The notes beneath the pieces were generated by a model. That model did no database searches. It was not told where the DNA came from and saw only the letters and a program-made list of their open reading frames with translations. The position numbers and the translations under genes are program-made. From Roseicitreum antarcticum (GTDB taxonomy: Bacteria; Pseudomonadota; Alphaproteobacteria; Rhodobacterales; Rhodobacteraceae): a DNA stretch of 64,000 bases. Each line of letters begins with the position of its first letter. The stretch's first letter is position 1. The stretch lies in the NCBI RefSeq assembly GCF_014681765.1, contig NZ_CP061498.1, positions 2,183,501 through 2,247,500 on the forward strand, read 5' to 3'. This document shows positions 6,748-64,000 of this stretch, piece by piece.

Positions 6748-6841
6748 AAGGATTTGATTCACAGGTGCAAGAGCATATCCGCCACCTGCACCGTTGCGCG
6801 GGCTGGACGCACAACCCAGACGGGTGCGCTGCCGACACGCA

Positions 6842-7132
6842 TCAGCCGTTGACGCTGTCTTTCAGGGCCTTGGCAATGGTCATTTTCACGGCTTTGTCGG
6901 CCGGTTTGATCATCGTCTCGCCCGTGGCAGGGTTGCGCACCTGACGTTCGGGACGGGCGCGGCAAGCGATCTTGCCGATGCCGGGCAGAGTCACGGCACC
7001 GCCGCCGCCGACTTCGCGGGTGATCAGCGTCGTGATCGCGTCCAGCGCGGTCGTCGCGGTTTTCTTGTCGCTGCCCATTTCTTCGGCCAGTGCAGCCACC
7101 AGTTGCGTCTTGGTCATTGGTTTCGTTGTCAT
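6842..7132 (-). CDS. HU-family DNA-binding protein
   Basis: This is a small nucleoid-associated protein of 96 residues. The helical N-terminus MTKTQLVAALAEEMG is followed by the beta-arm sequence RNPATGETMIKPADK (66-80), whose Pro intercalates at DNA bends. The start at 7132 has a good ribosome binding site (AGGAGA) and gives the family length; an ATG six residues in would also fit. A longer reading adds 23 unrelated residues. It is monocistronic, with a terminator downstream. Whether it is the HU alpha- or beta-like copy cannot be told. Confidence 0.93.
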   Translation of the reverse strand: MTTKPMTKTQLVAALAEEMGSDKKTATTALDAITTLITREVGGGGAVTLPGIGKIACRARPERQVRNPATGETMIKPADKAVKMTIAKALKDSVNG

Positions 7133-58832: not shown

Positions 58833-58914
58833 ATGTGTGGGGAAATCAGAAACTGTTCCCGGGCAGGCGGGTTGTGCCCTGGCACCGGGTCGGCTCCACA
58901 GAAAAGGCTTGATT

Positions 58915-58943
58915 GTGCTATACACAACAGTTGTATATAGCAC
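58915..58943. promoter_or_regulatory. Inverted-repeat operator in front of the truncated MarR gene
   Basis: GTGCTATACACAA-CAG-TTGTATATAGCAC is an inverted repeat with 13-bp arms (one mismatch) and a 3-bp centre. It ends 5 bp before the MarR start codon. Size and position are typical of a MarR dimer site. Confidence 0.7.
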
Positions 58944-58948
58944 TTATT

Positions 58949-59147
58949 ATGGATCACGAAGAAATTCCGCTGCATTGGATCAACCGCCTTGGCTTTCTGG
59001 TGCGGCGCGCGCTGGGCGATCAGTTCCGTGCCGCGGGCCACCCCGTCAGCCCCGAGGAATGGGCGATCTTGCTGGTCTTATGGAAATACGGGCCCCGGAC
59101 GCCCGGTGCGCTGGCCGATGTGACGATCAAGGACCGCACCACGATCA
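58949..59147 (+). pseudogene. MarR-family regulator, C-terminally truncated at an IS3 fragment
   Basis: The start MDHEEIPLHWINRLGFLVRR is followed by AAGHPVSPEEWAILLVLWKY and LADVTIKDRTTI, which is the first part of the MarR winged-helix domain. Homology stops after about 66 residues, in the recognition helix, where IS3-transposase sequence begins in another frame. The wing and dimerisation helices are lost, so the product should be inactive. Its palindromic operator is still intact. Confidence 0.75.
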
Positions 59148-59154
59148 TCTGTCA

Positions 59155-59403
59155 CGATCGGGAAAGGCGACCACCGCTGCCAGCGCACTGGAGCATGCGC
59201 TGATCAGCCGGTTCGGCACGCTCGGCAAAGTGCCACACGAGTTCCTTCTCAGGTCCGACAACGGGCTGGTCTTTACAAGTCGGAAATACACTGCGCTGGT
59301 CCGCAGCTATGGCCTGAAACAGGAGTTCATCACGCCACATTGCCCGCAACAGAATGGCATGGTCGAGCGCGTGATCAGGACACTGAAGGAGCAGTGTGTT
59401 CAT
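59155..59403 (+). mobile_element. IS3-family transposase (integrase core) fragment
   Basis: This frame encodes SGKATTAASALEHALISRFG, LLRSDNGLVFTSRKYTALVR and ITPHCPQQNGMVERVIRTLK, the second Asp and the Glu of the DDE core of an IS3-type OrfB. The first part of the transposase and the conserved end after EQCVH are missing. It sits exactly where the MarR gene breaks off, so it is a remnant of the insertion or of a later deletion. No inverted repeats could be placed. Confidence 0.8.
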
Positions 59404-59621
59404 CCGAAAGGTCCGCATCTTACCAGTTCGTACACGATGCAGCGAACAGCAGGTGTACGGATATGGTGGGACTTCTGAGAATTTCATTGTAGCAGCCATC
59501 TGGCAAACCAATGTCGCCTATTTCACTCAACTCAAGGGTGACAAAAGATTGTAAAACTAACGCCCCCCTTACGGACAGCCCTAGCGTAGGATTCTACCCC
59601 CCATCCAGCATTCGAGCCCAC

Positions 59622-60140
59622 TTACCGATCAGGCACCGCTTCAAGGGAAGCTTCGAACCGCTTGTCCGCTGCCGCAGCTTCTTTCAAGAGCGCGTCGAAA
59701 TTGTCAGGTGGGTTGCCATTGTCCAACATCCCTTTGAAGGTCGCATAGGCATCCGTCTTGCTGCCGTAAGCGCGCAGGGTCTTGTCGTCGTTCACCCAGG
59801 CCACCACGATGACCTTCGCATCGCTGTTGAACCGGTAGAACAACCGATACTGTTGAAAGAACTTTGCCCGGAACCAGTGCTTGCGGTGATCGCCGAGTGT
59901 GCCGCCTTGCCGGAAGGCCGCGGCACCCGGATCCGCCGGTATGGCCTCCGTCACCAGCTTGAAGATGGCGGCCAGCCGCTTCGTGCAGTTTTTCTTGCGC
60001 CAGCTCTTGGGATCACGCGCTTTGCGCGCCTCAACCTCTTCGATCAGGCCTTCGAGCTGGTCCAGAAAGAGCGGATGCGCATAAATCGACCATCCGTTAA
60101 CGACAAGGGGCGCTTGGGCGGGCACACTATCGCCGCTCAT
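59622..60140 (-). CDS. yhaV: Toxin YhaV of the PrlF-YhaV toxin-antitoxin module
   Basis: YhaV is a RelE-fold RNase toxin. The 172-residue protein shows LVVNGWSIYAHPLFLDQLEG (12-31), NCTKRLAAIFKLVTEAIPAD, LGDHRKHWFRAKFFQQYRLF (about 82-101) and VVAWVNDDKTLRAYGSKTDA, all characteristic of the family. It starts inside the stop codon of the antitoxin gene (ATGA), the usual antitoxin-first order. Confidence 0.93.
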   Translation of the reverse strand: MSGDSVPAQAPLVVNGWSIYAHPLFLDQLEGLIEEVEARKARDPKSWRKKNCTKRLAAIFKLVTEAIPADPGAAAFRQGGTLGDHRKHWFRAKFFQQYRLFYRFNSDAKVIVVAWVNDDKTLRAYGSKTDAYATFKGMLDNGNPPDNFDALLKEAAAADKRFEASLEAVPDR

Positions 60141-60463
60141 TCATCCTCGAGCGATAGCGGCGCATCGAGATCGACGTCAACGTCTCCGACCAGTGCTGCA
60201 AGACGGTCATGCAAAGCCCCATCGAACGCCCGAATGCGGTCCGGATGCGCCTTGATATCGGCTTCGACAAAATCGAGAAAGGCTCCGAGAACAGGATCTT
60301 CCTCTTCGGCGCGCACGGGCTCGATATAGACCCTGCCACTCGGTTCGGTGCAGTAGCGAATCTGGTCGCCCTTGCCCAGCTTGAGCTGCTTGCGCACACC
60401 GGCCGGAACGGTCGTCTGATACCGATCAGTGAGTTTCGATACATCTTGTGCGAGCGCTGTCAT
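60137..60463 (-). CDS. prlF: Antitoxin PrlF (SohA) of the PrlF-YhaV module
   Basis: PrlF is an AbrB-type swapped-hairpin DNA-binding antitoxin. The 108-residue product has SKLTDRYQTTVPAGVRKQLK (9-28) and LGKGDQIRYCTE, the AbrB fold, and an acidic C-terminus (DVDVDLDAPLSLEDE) that should bind and neutralise YhaV. It has an AGGAGA ribosome binding site and a clear promoter with an operator between its boxes, so the pair represses itself. Confidence 0.92.
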   Translation of the reverse strand: MTALAQDVSKLTDRYQTTVPAGVRKQLKLGKGDQIRYCTEPSGRVYIEPVRAEEEDPVLGAFLDFVEADIKAHPDRIRAFDGALHDRLAALVGDVDVDLDAPLSLEDE

Positions 60464-60656: not shown

Positions 60657-61091
60657 TCATGCGGCGTCTCTGATTTCAGGGGCGCTGATTTCGGTTTCTG
60701 GGTTGAGCCAGACGGCTCCGGCAGGTTGCCAGTTGCGGGTTTTGCCTGACCAGCGTTCTGGGTTTTGTGACCGAGCATTTGCATAGAGACTGGCACGATT
60801 GGCGAGCGTTGCACGATCATGGCCAGCGTGGCGCGCGGCCGGGGTGACGAAGTGGATGGCGCTGTGTAGGTGCTCTTCGTTATACCAACCGGTGAAGGAT
60901 TTCACCCAAGCTTGAGCGTCATCTTTGGTGGCAAAACCCTTGGTCGGCCAGTCCGGGCGATATTTGCAGGTTCGAAACAGCGCCTCCGAGAACGGGTTGT
61001 CATTGCTGACGCGCGGCCGGCTGTAGGACGCGATGATGCCGAGTTTTTCCATAGTGGTCTTCATCGTGGCGCCCTTCATGGGGCTGTCCAG
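60657..61091 (-). mobile_element. IS3-family transposase C-terminal fragment
   Basis: The minus-strand frame begins at SPMKGATMKTTMEKLGIIAS and continues SYSRPRVSNDNPFSEALFRT and GWYNEEHLHSAIHFVTPAAR, the last third of an IS3 OrfB with its catalytic Glu. The preceding DNG motif and everything before it are lost near 61091. The sequence differs from the IS3 fragment at 59155-59403, so two different IS elements left remnants here. Confidence 0.82.
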
Positions 61092-61212
61092 ACTGTCCAA
61101 TGCGGCCCCATTCCCGCATAAGAGACCAATCTCCAAACAGCCCCGGCACTATCTCCATCCGGTAAAACCGGCACGCATTGCTGAGACGGTCTATCCGCTT
61201 CAGGTCCATCCT

Positions 61213-61818
61213 CTACCCCCACATCCTTGCTGCGATATCCTGCTCTTCCTTACCGACTGCGTCAGCGTAGATTGCGGTGGTGCTCAGCTGCGCGTGGCCT
61301 AGCCAACGCTGCAGCATGTGCAGGGGCACGCCTTGGACAGTCGCATGGACGCCAAACCCATGCCTGAGACCTTTCGGCGAACGGTGTGGTGCATCCGGGA
61401 TGCCGGCCTCGATCATGACCCGTTTGACGATCTGCCAGATCCGGACGCGGCTCAGGTCCCAGATGGGGACCGCGGTCTTCCGGCGCGACGTTTGGGCCTC
61501 ACGGATTCCGTGAGCGGTGTTCAAGGTATCGAGAAACTCGGCTGGAACCGGGGCTGACCGGAACATGATCTTTGTGCTGCCTGACGCATCCTTGCGTTTT
61601 TTCAAGGACCGGATCGCGATGGTGCCACCGGAGAGGTCTATCCGGGCCGGGGTAATCTCGAGAAGTTCGGATGGCCGGCAGCCGGTCCAGTGCAAGGTCT
61701 CGCATAGCGTTCGGTTTCGGGCGGGCTGGCGCTGGGCAGCAACAAGGAAGGCCGCACGTTCCTCGGCGTTGAGATAAAGCCGGTTTCCGGCGGGGTCATG
61801 GAGGCGCATTTCGGACAT
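61213..61818 (-). CDS. Small tyrosine recombinase (phage-integrase catalytic domain only)
   Basis: The 201-residue product consists almost only of the catalytic domain. The Arg I motif is TGCRPSELLEI (Arg48), the beta-hairpin lysine region is SLKKRKDASG (71-80), box II is PKGLRHGFGVHA with Arg152 (the usual His two before is replaced by Lys-Gly), and LGHAQLSTTAIYAD carries His175 and the nucleophile Tyr184. No N-terminal SAM-like core-binding domain is present. The ATG at 61818 abuts a dif-like repeat (61820-61847) and a second, inverted copy lies 60 bp further. It may recombine those sites or be controlled by them. Confidence 0.88.
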   Translation of the reverse strand: MSEMRLHDPAGNRLYLNAEERAAFLVAAQRQPARNRTLCETLHWTGCRPSELLEITPARIDLSGGTIAIRSLKKRKDASGSTKIMFRSAPVPAEFLDTLNTAHGIREAQTSRRKTAVPIWDLSRVRIWQIVKRVMIEAGIPDAPHRSPKGLRHGFGVHATVQGVPLHMLQRWLGHAQLSTTAIYADAVGKEEQDIAARMWG

Positions 61819-61819
61819 A

Positions 61820-61847
61820 GTGAACAGTTTACCCGAATAGTGTTAAA
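61820..61847 (+). repeat. Dif-like recombination site candidate, copy 1
   Basis: Arms GTGAACAGTTT (61820-61830, degenerate) and ATAGTGTTAAA (61837-61847) enclose a 6-bp core ACCCGA. The left arm borders the recombinase start codon. The right arm is identical to that of copy 2. The 11-6-11 layout is that of XerC/D-type sites. Confidence 0.55.
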
Positions 61848-61905
61848 CCGCAAAGCCCAAACGGACCCCCTACCCTGCCATTCTGCTGGTCTCAGTGTTC
61901 AATCG

Positions 61906-61932
61906 TTTAACACTATGGGTAATAGTGTTAAA
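61906..61932 (-). repeat. Dif-like recombination site candidate, copy 2 (perfect inverted repeat)
   Basis: TTTAACACTAT-GGGTA-ATAGTGTTAAA has two perfect 11-bp arms around a 5-bp core. Read on the minus strand, its core (TACCC) and right arm match copy 1, so the two sites are in inverted orientation about 58 bp apart. An alternative reading is a repressor operator. Confidence 0.6.
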
Positions 61933-62193
61933 TTCCTCTCCCTCGAACGCCACACTTTGACATATCCACAGAGTGTTCCGGTCGACAAGAAGCCACACGC
62001 TCCAGTGAGGCGCTCCCGCATTCAAGGGATTTTTGGCTCTCCAGAATTTAGGGATGGCTCTGATGCGATGTGGCCAAGCCGCGGGGTCCGGCTACAATTG
62101 AGGCAAAAAACGAGAACTGTTAAATAACGTATTTACTTCTCTGCCAAAAGGCGTGTATCAACAATCAAGAACCAACAAGGAGTGAGTTTTGCC
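61933..62193. other. Intergenic leader of the unknown cassette
   Basis: This AT-richer stretch lies between the repeat pair and the small gene at 62194. It contains ATATCCACAG at about 61969, one base off a DnaA box, and an A-rich segment (GGCAAAAAACGAGAAC). I see no coding sequence. It should contain the promoter of the three-gene cassette. Confidence 0.4.
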
Positions 62194-62382
62194 ATGAAGA
62201 GGATCATCCGGGACTACCAGAAGCTTTGCGCCGCCGAGAGTTTCGACCTGCTCGATATGGCGCCGAGGGGTGGCCACTACGCGCTGCAGTTCGAGCGCGG
62301 CACGATCTTCTGCCCCTCCACGCCCTCTGACCGCCGCAACATGCGCAACCTCCGCGCCTCCATCCGCCGCCTGCACGCCTGA
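62194..62382 (+). CDS. Small protein of unknown function
   Basis: The 62-residue product starts with MKRIIRDYQKLCAAESFDLL and contains GGHYALQFERGTIFCPSTPS, ending in RNMRNLRASIRRLHA. The pattern (basic helix, GGHY strand, PSTPSD loop, basic helix) recalls the HicA-like double-stranded RNA-binding fold, but I cannot assign the family. It has an AAGGAG ribosome binding site 11 bases ahead. It is 12 bp upstream of the 317-residue gene, so it is probably the first gene of an operon. Confidence 0.65.
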   Translation: MKRIIRDYQKLCAAESFDLLDMAPRGGHYALQFERGTIFCPSTPSDRRNMRNLRASIRRLHA

Positions 62383-62394
62383 AGGACACTGACC

Positions 62395-63348
62395 ATGACG
62401 ACCACGCTTCCCGAAAACATGACCGCCGCCGACCGCCGCCAGGCCTGGTTCGAAAACGAGCTCACCGGCTATGCCCGCTCCGGCACCTCCGAGGCCCCGA
62501 TGTCCTGGGACTACGGCGACGAGATCATCGAAATCCTCACGGGCCATTTCCTTGCCCTCGAGAAGATCCTCGGCGCCGAGGAAATCGCCGGTCCGCTCTT
62601 CACCCTGCTGCACGGCCCCGACGTCGAGGGCGAGACCTGGCGCGAGACATTCGAGACCTACCAGCCGACGCTAACCCAAGAATGGACCGGCACCCTGCTG
62701 ATCGATAACGCCGGGATCTACGGTCTCTACGGCGTGACACCCGCGGAGATCGCCCATTCTGATCGCGCGTCTTGGGTCGAGGACCTGGCACGGCGCTTGG
62801 CCGCCTTCCGTGCCGATGTGCATCCGGTGCCGGGTGGCGTGATCGACCGCATCACGAACCTGGCCTTGGCGCGCCGTGCCATAGACGCCCGCGAGGGGGA
62901 GGTCGATCTTGTCTCCATGGCGCTTTTGGGCGGCGTGACCGAGGGTCGTGTGCGCAACATCCTCTCGGGCAGCGAAAGCCCGCTGGAACGCAGTGCCCAA
63001 GGCGTGACTGCCGTCAGCGCTGCTGATTGGCTGAAGGGCCGGAAAGAGTACTTCGCCTCGATCTGGCAGATGCCCAACGAGGTCACGCCCGAGCCCCCCA
63101 GTGCGGATTTCACCGGTGAGGTGATCTTTGTCCCCGTCGCCGGGGATGGCAGCACCTTTGGTCCCGAGCTTGCCCGCAACGGGCACTATACCGTCGGTGC
63201 CAAAGGGGCCGAGGTGCAGTACACCACCTTCGATGCGGCGCTGGCGGCGTTGCACCGGATGGATACGCCGCGCTGGAGGCGCCCGAACCCGGCGGGCAAC
63301 TGGGGTATCGTCTCCGGCCGCGACTGGAAGCGTATCGAGAAGAAGTGA
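62395..63348 (+). CDS. Uncharacterised protein of a mobile-element cassette
   Basis: The 317-residue protein has no family I recognise. It is soluble, with an acidic helical N-terminal part (PENMTAADRRQAWFENELTG) and a middle segment with SMALLGGVTEGRVRNILSGS (about 183-202), which resembles a helix-turn-helix. The C-terminal part has EVIFVPVAGDGSTFGPELAR and WRRPNPAGNWGIVSGRDW. The HTH-like segment suggests that it binds DNA. Its stop overlaps the next frame, and it lies between the small gene and the GIY-YIG gene. Confidence 0.7.
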   Translation: MTTTLPENMTAADRRQAWFENELTGYARSGTSEAPMSWDYGDEIIEILTGHFLALEKILGAEEIAGPLFTLLHGPDVEGETWRETFETYQPTLTQEWTGTLLIDNAGIYGLYGVTPAEIAHSDRASWVEDLARRLAAFRADVHPVPGGVIDRITNLALARRAIDAREGEVDLVSMALLGGVTEGRVRNILSGSESPLERSAQGVTAVSAADWLKGRKEYFASIWQMPNEVTPEPPSADFTGEVIFVPVAGDGSTFGPELARNGHYTVGAKGAEVQYTTFDAALAALHRMDTPRWRRPNPAGNWGIVSGRDWKRIEKK

Positions 63349-63356
63349 GCGCAGAG

Positions 63357-63935
63357 ATGACCATCCCCACTGCCACCGAAATTCTGGACCTGCTGAAGCA
63401 GGCCAGGCCCCGGCCTACCTCCGAAGCGCCGCGCGATGCGCGTGGCATTTACGGGCTCTTCGATCACACCGGGACTTTCCGCTACATCGGGTCCACCTCG
63501 TCCAGCGCCGAGACCTTCTACAAGCGCATCCACCAGCGGCACCGCACGGGATCCGAGACACACAGCCATTACTTCGCTCACATGTACAACACCGGACGGA
63601 TGTGGGTCGACAGGACCGATCCAGAAACTACGATAGAGATGAAGATCGTCCGCCGCCTGCGGCAGGCCTTCGTCGCCAGCCATTGCGGCTGCACCTGGGT
63701 GCCGCTGCCGGATCACGCCGATATTGCTGCGCTGGAAGCTGAGGTCATCGCCGTGGCCCCGTCCGAGATGGTGGCCTGGAACCGCAGGGGCATGGCGGTC
63801 TACGACGAGCCTGTCGACCTGGTCGATGCGCTGATCGGACAAATGGAGCTGAGCCCCTTCGAGCGCGCGGCTTTGACCCGCCAACTACGACCGTGGCAGC
63901 ATCTGTCAGGTGGGTGTTGCCTGCGTGCGCCATGA
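63357..63935 (+). CDS. GIY-YIG nuclease domain protein
   Basis: The 192-residue product (ATG at 63357; a GTG at 63345 overlapping the upstream stop is an alternative) has the GIY-YIG core ARGIYGLFDHTGTFRYIGST near residues 28-47, with the catalytic Arg in YKRIHQRH and Glu in IAALEAEVIA. GIY-YIG domains cut DNA in homing nucleases, repair enzymes and mobile elements. The last residues (HLSGGCCLRAP) are read in the wrong frame of an exonuclease-like sequence, so the C-terminus is probably an artefact of a deletion. Confidence 0.8.
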   Translation: MTIPTATEILDLLKQARPRPTSEAPRDARGIYGLFDHTGTFRYIGSTSSSAETFYKRIHQRHRTGSETHSHYFAHMYNTGRMWVDRTDPETTIEMKIVRRLRQAFVASHCGCTWVPLPDHADIAALEAEVIAVAPSEMVAWNRRGMAVYDEPVDLVDALIGQMELSPFERAALTRQLRPWQHLSGGCCLRAP

Positions 63936-64000
63936 CAACAGCATCGAGACCTGGGTGACGCTGGTCGATCCGCAGACCTCCCGCTGGATGTTCAGCGGGC
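63877..64000 (+). pseudogene. DEDDh exonuclease (DnaQ/RNase T-like) fragment, partial at window edge
   Basis: In a frame shifted by one base from the GIY-YIG gene, codons from 63880 read ANYDRGSICQVGVACVRHDN and then ETWVTLVDPQ, the start of a DnaQ-like 3'-5' exonuclease just after its catalytic DxE motif. The motif itself and any start codon are missing; an in-frame TGA lies at 63874-63876. It looks like a former fusion partner of the GIY-YIG protein that lost its first strand and frame through a small deletion. The rest lies outside the window. Confidence 0.7.

Follow-up and report, generated by a model that had tools for sequence, protein, structure and literature searches.

Cre, which acts at lox, and ResD of F, which acts at rfsF, are plasmid-encoded tyrosine resolvases. 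Closer to the locus considered here is the TnpI/IRS system of the Tn3-family transposons Tn4430 and Tn5401, in which a single tyrosine recombinase has its recombination region directly upstream of its gene, that region being composed of an inverted-repeat core and accessory motifs (two direct repeats); by binding to this region, which holds promoters, TnpI modulates the expression of tnpI (PMC7157771). XerC and XerD, acting at dif and at the plasmid sites cer and psi (PMC5357621), resolve multimers at sites with 11-bp arms around a short center (11-6-11 in dif), and combine an N-terminal core-binding domain with a catalytic domain. The FimB and FimE invertases are proteins of about 200 residues without a core-binding domain, and a survey of tyrosine recombinases published in 2012 could assign no resolution role to its plasmid families (PMC3414803).

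The locus described here lies in a window of 64,000 nucleotides (the whole stretch of DNA that was analyzed, from Roseicitreum antarcticum), and, as judged from its sequence, is probably a copy, situated on the chromosome, of a self-contained ‘multimer-resolution module’ that plasmids carry. Like TnpI/IRS, it joins a single tyrosine recombinase to an inverted-repeat core and an accessory element directly upstream of the gene (here two phased sites, recognized at 55 loci by their sequence features), and the placement of its candidate promoter would be compatible with the recombinase-modulated promoters inside the TnpI/IRS region. Unlike TnpI/IRS, the module has no transposon ends, and neither in the window nor in the annotated plasmids does a tnpA adjoin the gene; its accessory element is not a set of two direct repeats but a second, imperfect palindrome 58 bp or more away; and its enzyme, which is carried by plasmids and often lies beside a gene for a WGR-domain protein, consists of a catalytic domain only. 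Having no transposase, a different accessory site and no N-terminal domain, the module is not a member of the TnpI/IRS group, in whose manner it would work. We know of no description of such a two-site recombinase module, nor of a comparable phased second site or WGR partner in other plasmid tyrosine resolvases, and a search of the literature on Roseobacter, Paracoccus and Acetobacter plasmids, conducted largely outside subscription papers, found none.

The recombinase and its two sites

The first-pass annotation had placed a catalytic-domain-only recombinase of 201 residues behind two sites, and the reading frame, both sites and the 58-bp spacer were all recovered at those positions (Table 1). 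The protein, a catalytic domain of the phage-integrase family, aligns from about position 120 of the XerD profile and from residue 129 of the XerD structure chain; some 120 N-terminal residues of XerD are missing, and with them the core-binding domain that is part of the Xer layout. Its catalytic set (R48, K73/K74, K149, R152, H175 and Y184) is invariant in 31 aligned relatives, with identities down to 42%. Box II had been said to read Lys-Gly-Leu-Arg, and this is borne out; the lysine (K149), which stands where histidine is usual, is equally invariant, and hence a trait of the family rather than a sign of decay.

XerD and XerA are the nearest profiled families, and the protein scores below the cut-offs (in brackets) of each: 73.4 bits against XerA_Arch (220), 66.3 against XerD (329.6) and 52.7 against XerC (335), as well as 38.6 and 31.3 against FimB/FimE (222 and 221) and 33.8 and 28.7 against IntI (265 and 435). 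The module has in common with XerC/XerD-dif and with cer/psi its 11-bp arms, a short center and a putative role in multimer resolution, yet it relies on one enzyme beside its own site and on a fully palindromic core with a 5-bp center (11-5-11), the 11-6-11 layout of Xer/dif being found in the proximal site only. With Cre/lox, ResD/rfsF and the plasmid families of PMC3414803 it shares a plasmid-borne enzyme adjoining its site and a role in monomerization (for the module, a proposed one), whereas the enzymes of those systems are larger and possess an N-terminal domain.

Table 1. Features of the locus, in window coordinates
Feature	Position	Strand	Remark
Tyrosine recombinase, catalytic domain only, 201 aa	61213-61818	-	ATG start; PF00589, E=5.7e-20
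Proximal site, imperfect 11-6-11 palindrome	61820-61847	-	abuts ATG; proposed accessory site and operator
Spacer, 58 bp	61848-61905	-	length class common to 33 loci
Distal site, perfect 11-5-11 palindrome	61906-61932	-	proposed crossover core
Candidate -10, TAAACT	61826-61831	-	within proximal site, 7 nt before ATG; TANACT conserved in relatives
Candidate -35, CTTTGC	61850-61855	-	putative; GCTTC conserved in relatives
GGGTAGGG (GGGNAGGG, KOPS-like) motif in spacer	61868-61875	-	sense orientation in 29/55 loci
WGR-domain gene, first 42 residues, truncated	61084-61209	-	directly downstream of recombinase in relatives
IS3-family transposase fragment	60657-61136	-	stands in for rest of WGR gene
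Left part of plasmid-type segment (66-aa, 317-aa and broken GIY-YIG/exonuclease genes)	61933-64000	+	

On the + strand the proximal site reads GTGAACAGTTT-ACCCGA-ATAGTGTTAAA and the distal site TTTAACACTAT-GGGTA-ATAGTGTTAAA (the center of the latter being TACCC on the - strand), which agrees with the earlier description of 11-bp arms around a center of 5 to 6 bp. The proximal site is the less symmetric, and its center is one base longer. Read in the direction of the gene, the region runs TTTAACACTAT-TACCC-ATAGTGTTAAA, 58 bp, TTTAACACTAT-TCGGGT-AAACTGTTCAC, T, ATG. Both sites thus open with the same first arm, TTTAACACTAT, and the claim that they stand in inverted order is refuted. The distal site, its arms forming a perfect palindrome, can take a direction only from its central 5 bp.

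With at most one mismatch allowed, the window contains three copies of ATAGTGTTAAA, where shuffles predict 0.05. A search of the 4.25-Mb genome for further arms, as the first-pass annotation had suggested, returned five exact copies of the 11-mer: three in the window, one 2.9 kb off at 2248356 (just beyond the window’s end) and one close to clpA. An isolated TTTAACACTAT arm that precedes a ClpA-like gene (G000:C1:516091-516101; L060 ~10091) is likely to be due to chance.

In relatives, the TANACT element is conserved 7 bases 5' of the ATG, with GCTTC one promoter length further upstream, an arrangement that would suit a leaderless promoter with autorepression at the proximal site: because that site covers the -10 region and the start codon, recombinase bound there would repress its own gene. 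The proposed promoter was not scored by a generic sigma-70 promoter scan, which counts against the resolution reading as a whole. The earlier suggestion that the recombinase is self-regulated is likely to be right, given a proximal site lying over the predicted promoter and start and a pair of sites that is conserved and co-varies.

Conservation and distribution of the site pair

A joint search for both sites found the two-site module kept in 55 relative loci. Sites had at first been chosen by palindromy alone, which gave, for most loci, a distal site of 11-5-11 and a proximal one of 11-6-11, and the difference between the 5-bp and 6-bp centers is kept in nearly every relative. The sequences of the arms vary across lineages, and yet the distal and proximal arms co-vary within each locus: they match at a mean of 6.13 of 7 positions, versus 5.54 when shuffled (with none of 5000 shuffles as high, and 3 of 5000 reaching the observed value when one locus is taken per arm type). 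Thus TTACCCA in Desulfosarcina, TGAATCA in Shewanella, TGAAACA in Sedimenticola and TGTAACA in a metagenome-assembled genome of Rhizobiaceae each occur in both sites of their locus. The pair goes with the recombinase gene even in relatives of only about 43% protein identity, and at loci lacking the WGR gene as well, and the earlier claim that the sites belong to the recombinase is supported accordingly.

The lengths of the spacer fall at 57-58, 67-70, 80-81 and 100-101 bp, with none in between. The ten distinct lengths cluster at a period of 10.3-11 bp with a chance probability of about 5e-5 under an assumption of independence that fails, and of about 0.02 when only the four length classes are considered; such steps of a helical turn suggest that the two sites must share one face of the helix. 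The spacer runs forward in all 33 loci compared. The central 5 bp of the distal site take 27 forms among 57 loci, as would be expected if only copies from the same plasmid recombine with each other.

A genome scan found 52 recombinase loci, almost exclusively in Rhodobacterales, and within the window’s GTDB family the gene is present in 14 of 395 sampled genomes, each from another genus. In a plasmid collection, the plasmids bearing close relatives measure 24 to 300 kb, and more distant relatives (41-54% identity) occur on plasmids of Acetobacteraceae, Desulfosarcina, Aquimarina, Shewanella and Sedimenticola. Complete plasmids with the recombinase also bear replication (rep), partition (par) and toxin-antitoxin genes, and rep or par genes lie within the fetched flank at 20 of the 52 draft loci. 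In all nine complete plasmids examined for this feature, as in multimer-resolution systems as a class, there is one site pair per plasmid, linked to the recombinase gene (upstream of it) and found nowhere else; for one of the nine, Paracoccus p4, the distal site alone passed the threshold of that scan and the proximal site was seen in the joint search. That the contigs of some relatives are large or chromosomal speaks against a role in plasmid resolution. Searches of viral contigs and phage records for a phage origin of the recombinase gave no more than weak matches (~26-31%).

Several single loci deserve mention. Contigs labeled WWE3 (L014) and Thermomicrobiales (L027) hold Rhodobacterales-like recombinases (84% and 79% identity) and are probably misbinned plasmid contigs. 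In plasmid pROLI24 of Roseobacter litoralis the recombinase is divided between two annotated genes (L088 15870-16477), probably by a frameshift. In Salipiger marinus, genes for a transposase and an AAA-ATPase (TniA/TniB-like by eye) stand between the distal and proximal sites, and in Roseibaca DNA related to this insert precedes the proximal site (both under the L018/L021 entry), an arrangement reminiscent of res-hunting transposons.

A proposed route to multimer resolution

In the mechanism that we consider probable, the recombinase would bind both sites before its own gene. The distal, perfect palindrome would be the crossover core, and recombination between the two cores of a plasmid dimer would yield two monomers; a perfect palindrome with a freely varying center suits a crossover core at which copies of one plasmid recombine with each other. 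The proximal 11-6-11 site would act as an accessory site, bound by the same protein on the same helical face and not itself serving as a partner in the crossover, and binding on one face would allow core and accessory site to be wrapped together.

The spacer holds a further conserved element. The GGGNAGGG motif appears there in the sense orientation in 29 of the 55 loci and in antisense in one, whereas 500 dinucleotide shuffles gave 1.4 on average and never more than 7; it occurs in none of 52 equally long outer flanks, and its distance from the proximal site is about 28 bp in most loci, independently of the length of the spacer. GGGNAGGG is the KOPS sequence of FtsK (PMC5357621). At 36 of 68 loci a gene for a WGR-domain protein of 71 residues starts within a few bases of the stop codon of the recombinase, and its presence is associated with that of the motif (23/7 versus 6/19; Fisher p = 1.3e-4, kinship ignored), which makes a dedicated motif-binding accessory protein at least as likely as FtsK loading. 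Against the preferred reading, the recombinase family also occurs without the WGR gene and without the motif. A literature search lying mostly outside the subscription literature found no paper that pairs a WGR protein with a tyrosine recombinase.

Remote sites, alternative readings and the chromosomal copy

In about ten loci similar ‘remote’ sites lie 0.2-6 kb upstream of the module, and practically never downstream; simple resolution does not need them, a point against it. They raise the question of whether the distal core recombines with them, either in addition to dimer resolution or in its place, so that segments are gained, lost or exchanged between plasmid and chromosome. The pdif modules and attI are sites with which such a capture or exchange site may be compared. 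Sites with a perfect outward arm number 10 in sense and 5 in antisense orientation in 527 kb of upstream DNA (three places being entered on both strands), against one in 623 kb downstream. On the outer side of the remote site of an Alloyangia plasmid, 49 bp match at 90% the 49 bp that border the core, again externally, in a Thioclava plasmid without the 5.4-kb segment, the flank being found in none other of 72,556 plasmids; the two resemble occupied and empty versions of a core, and the outward arm of the Alloyangia remote site is the variant of its own plasmid, GTGAACACTAT. (The idea that this 49-bp flank is a Tn3-family terminal repeat was rejected, as it is found in two plasmids only, once each.) A segment is common to the window, Alloyangia and Monaibacterium, with homology that ends at the remote site. 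In the window, in Alloyangia and in Sulfitobacter litoralis, a single arm (AAAAGTGTT or GAAAGTGTT; AAAAGTGTT in the window) lies 25 bp inside the remote site.

Against exchange, the occupied and empty pair is a single case, remote site and core differ in their central 5 bp wherever they were compared, the strict composite form occurs in 1 of 395 genomes, and in S. litoralis and S. dubius the remote site and some 55 bp beyond it are part of the outer flank that the two share rather than of the segment. This last arrangement speaks against simple insertion, so that segment exchange, a rather unlikely reading, is kept as a rival and not as the main function. Searches with the flanks of loci L019 and L046 found no matching plasmid arrangement. 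An orphan composite site was seen on S. dubius plasmid pDSM109990_c (L130 ~6799-6870), with no recombinase of the family annotated within the 12.8 kb fetched around it. A combined scheme, in which resolution would be controlled through GGGNAGGG (by the neighboring WGR protein as a dedicated accessory factor, or by the division translocase FtsK) and the core would also exchange segments with remote sites, is a speculative extension that we hold doubtful; if true, plasmid monomerization and plasmid gene exchange would share one device.

That the gene encodes a mobile element’s integrase, for which the region upstream would be the attachment site, is improbable: a tyrosine recombinase near a site on mobile replicons, and a chromosomal copy in the window, would suit it, whereas complete circular plasmids contain just one site pair and show no integrated form, the core center varies freely rather than matching a fixed target, and, the third site described below excepted, no flanking copies were found within 96.5 kb around the window copy. 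Still less credible is the idea that the palindromes take no part in recombination and are operators to which a separate repressor binds; the proximal site does overlap the start and promoter, and the WGR or another protein could bind it, but tyrosine recombinase sites typically have this very layout of 11-bp arms flanking 5-6 bp, and the pair tracks the recombinase gene as described above. The phase-variable switch first proposed, in which the two related sites beside a FimB-sized recombinase would flip the 58-bp spacer and toggle the recombinase promoter, can be dismissed as most improbable of all, since, unlike those of FimB/FimE, the sites are not arranged for inversion (their left arms point in the same direction and their centers differ in length), the spacer is reversed in none of 33 loci, and so short a flip would demand very tight DNA bending.

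The proposed resolution module is represented in the window by a copy that appears to have left its plasmid setting. It lies on a 3.54-Mb contig with enzyme gene intact and spacer motif present, and its WGR gene is interrupted by an IS3 remnant, giving it the look of a chromosomal relic; with the partner truncated and a location on a 3.5-Mb replicon, its original role has probably been lost. The suggestion of a new self-regulated element is half right: the module is a conserved one of plasmids, and the window copy is chromosomal and partly broken. A second IS3-family fragment lies at 58837-59478, and a PrlF-YhaV toxin-antitoxin pair (59622-60463) adjoins the recombinase beside these fragments. 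No RPA-type plasmid replicon was found in the genome, and no plasmid rep or par genes near the copy except two short weak matches at one place ~35 kb off. A dif-like pattern had no match in the genome, a result that carries no weight.

On the other side of the module, the gene at 63345-63935, continuing to ~64730, is split into two frames and is about 40 residues short of its plasmid relative; on our own reading of the sequence it would be a GIY-YIG/exonuclease gene, and its C-terminal domain recurs in the preceding 317-aa gene. Its DNA is 84-89% identical to the gene upstream of the same recombinase on the Alloyangia plasmid. A third site, GGTATCGGTAT-TACCA-ATAGTGTTAAA, ends this plasmid-type segment just outside the window (64840-64866 in the window’s frame; L058:8340-8366), and beyond it stands a gene present in 170 of 395 family genomes, a further point for exchange. 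Read most simply, a piece of plasmid DNA has come to lie in the chromosome here, and the third site marks its right-hand junction.

Rhodobacterales harbor many small, stably inherited plasmids, and the module is a candidate for their resolution that would combine a minimal enzyme, a defined crossover site, a built-in operator and, often, a candidate accessory protein. Its arms, lineage-specific and co-varying, also offer suitable material for asking how an enzyme reduced to its catalytic domain selects its DNA.
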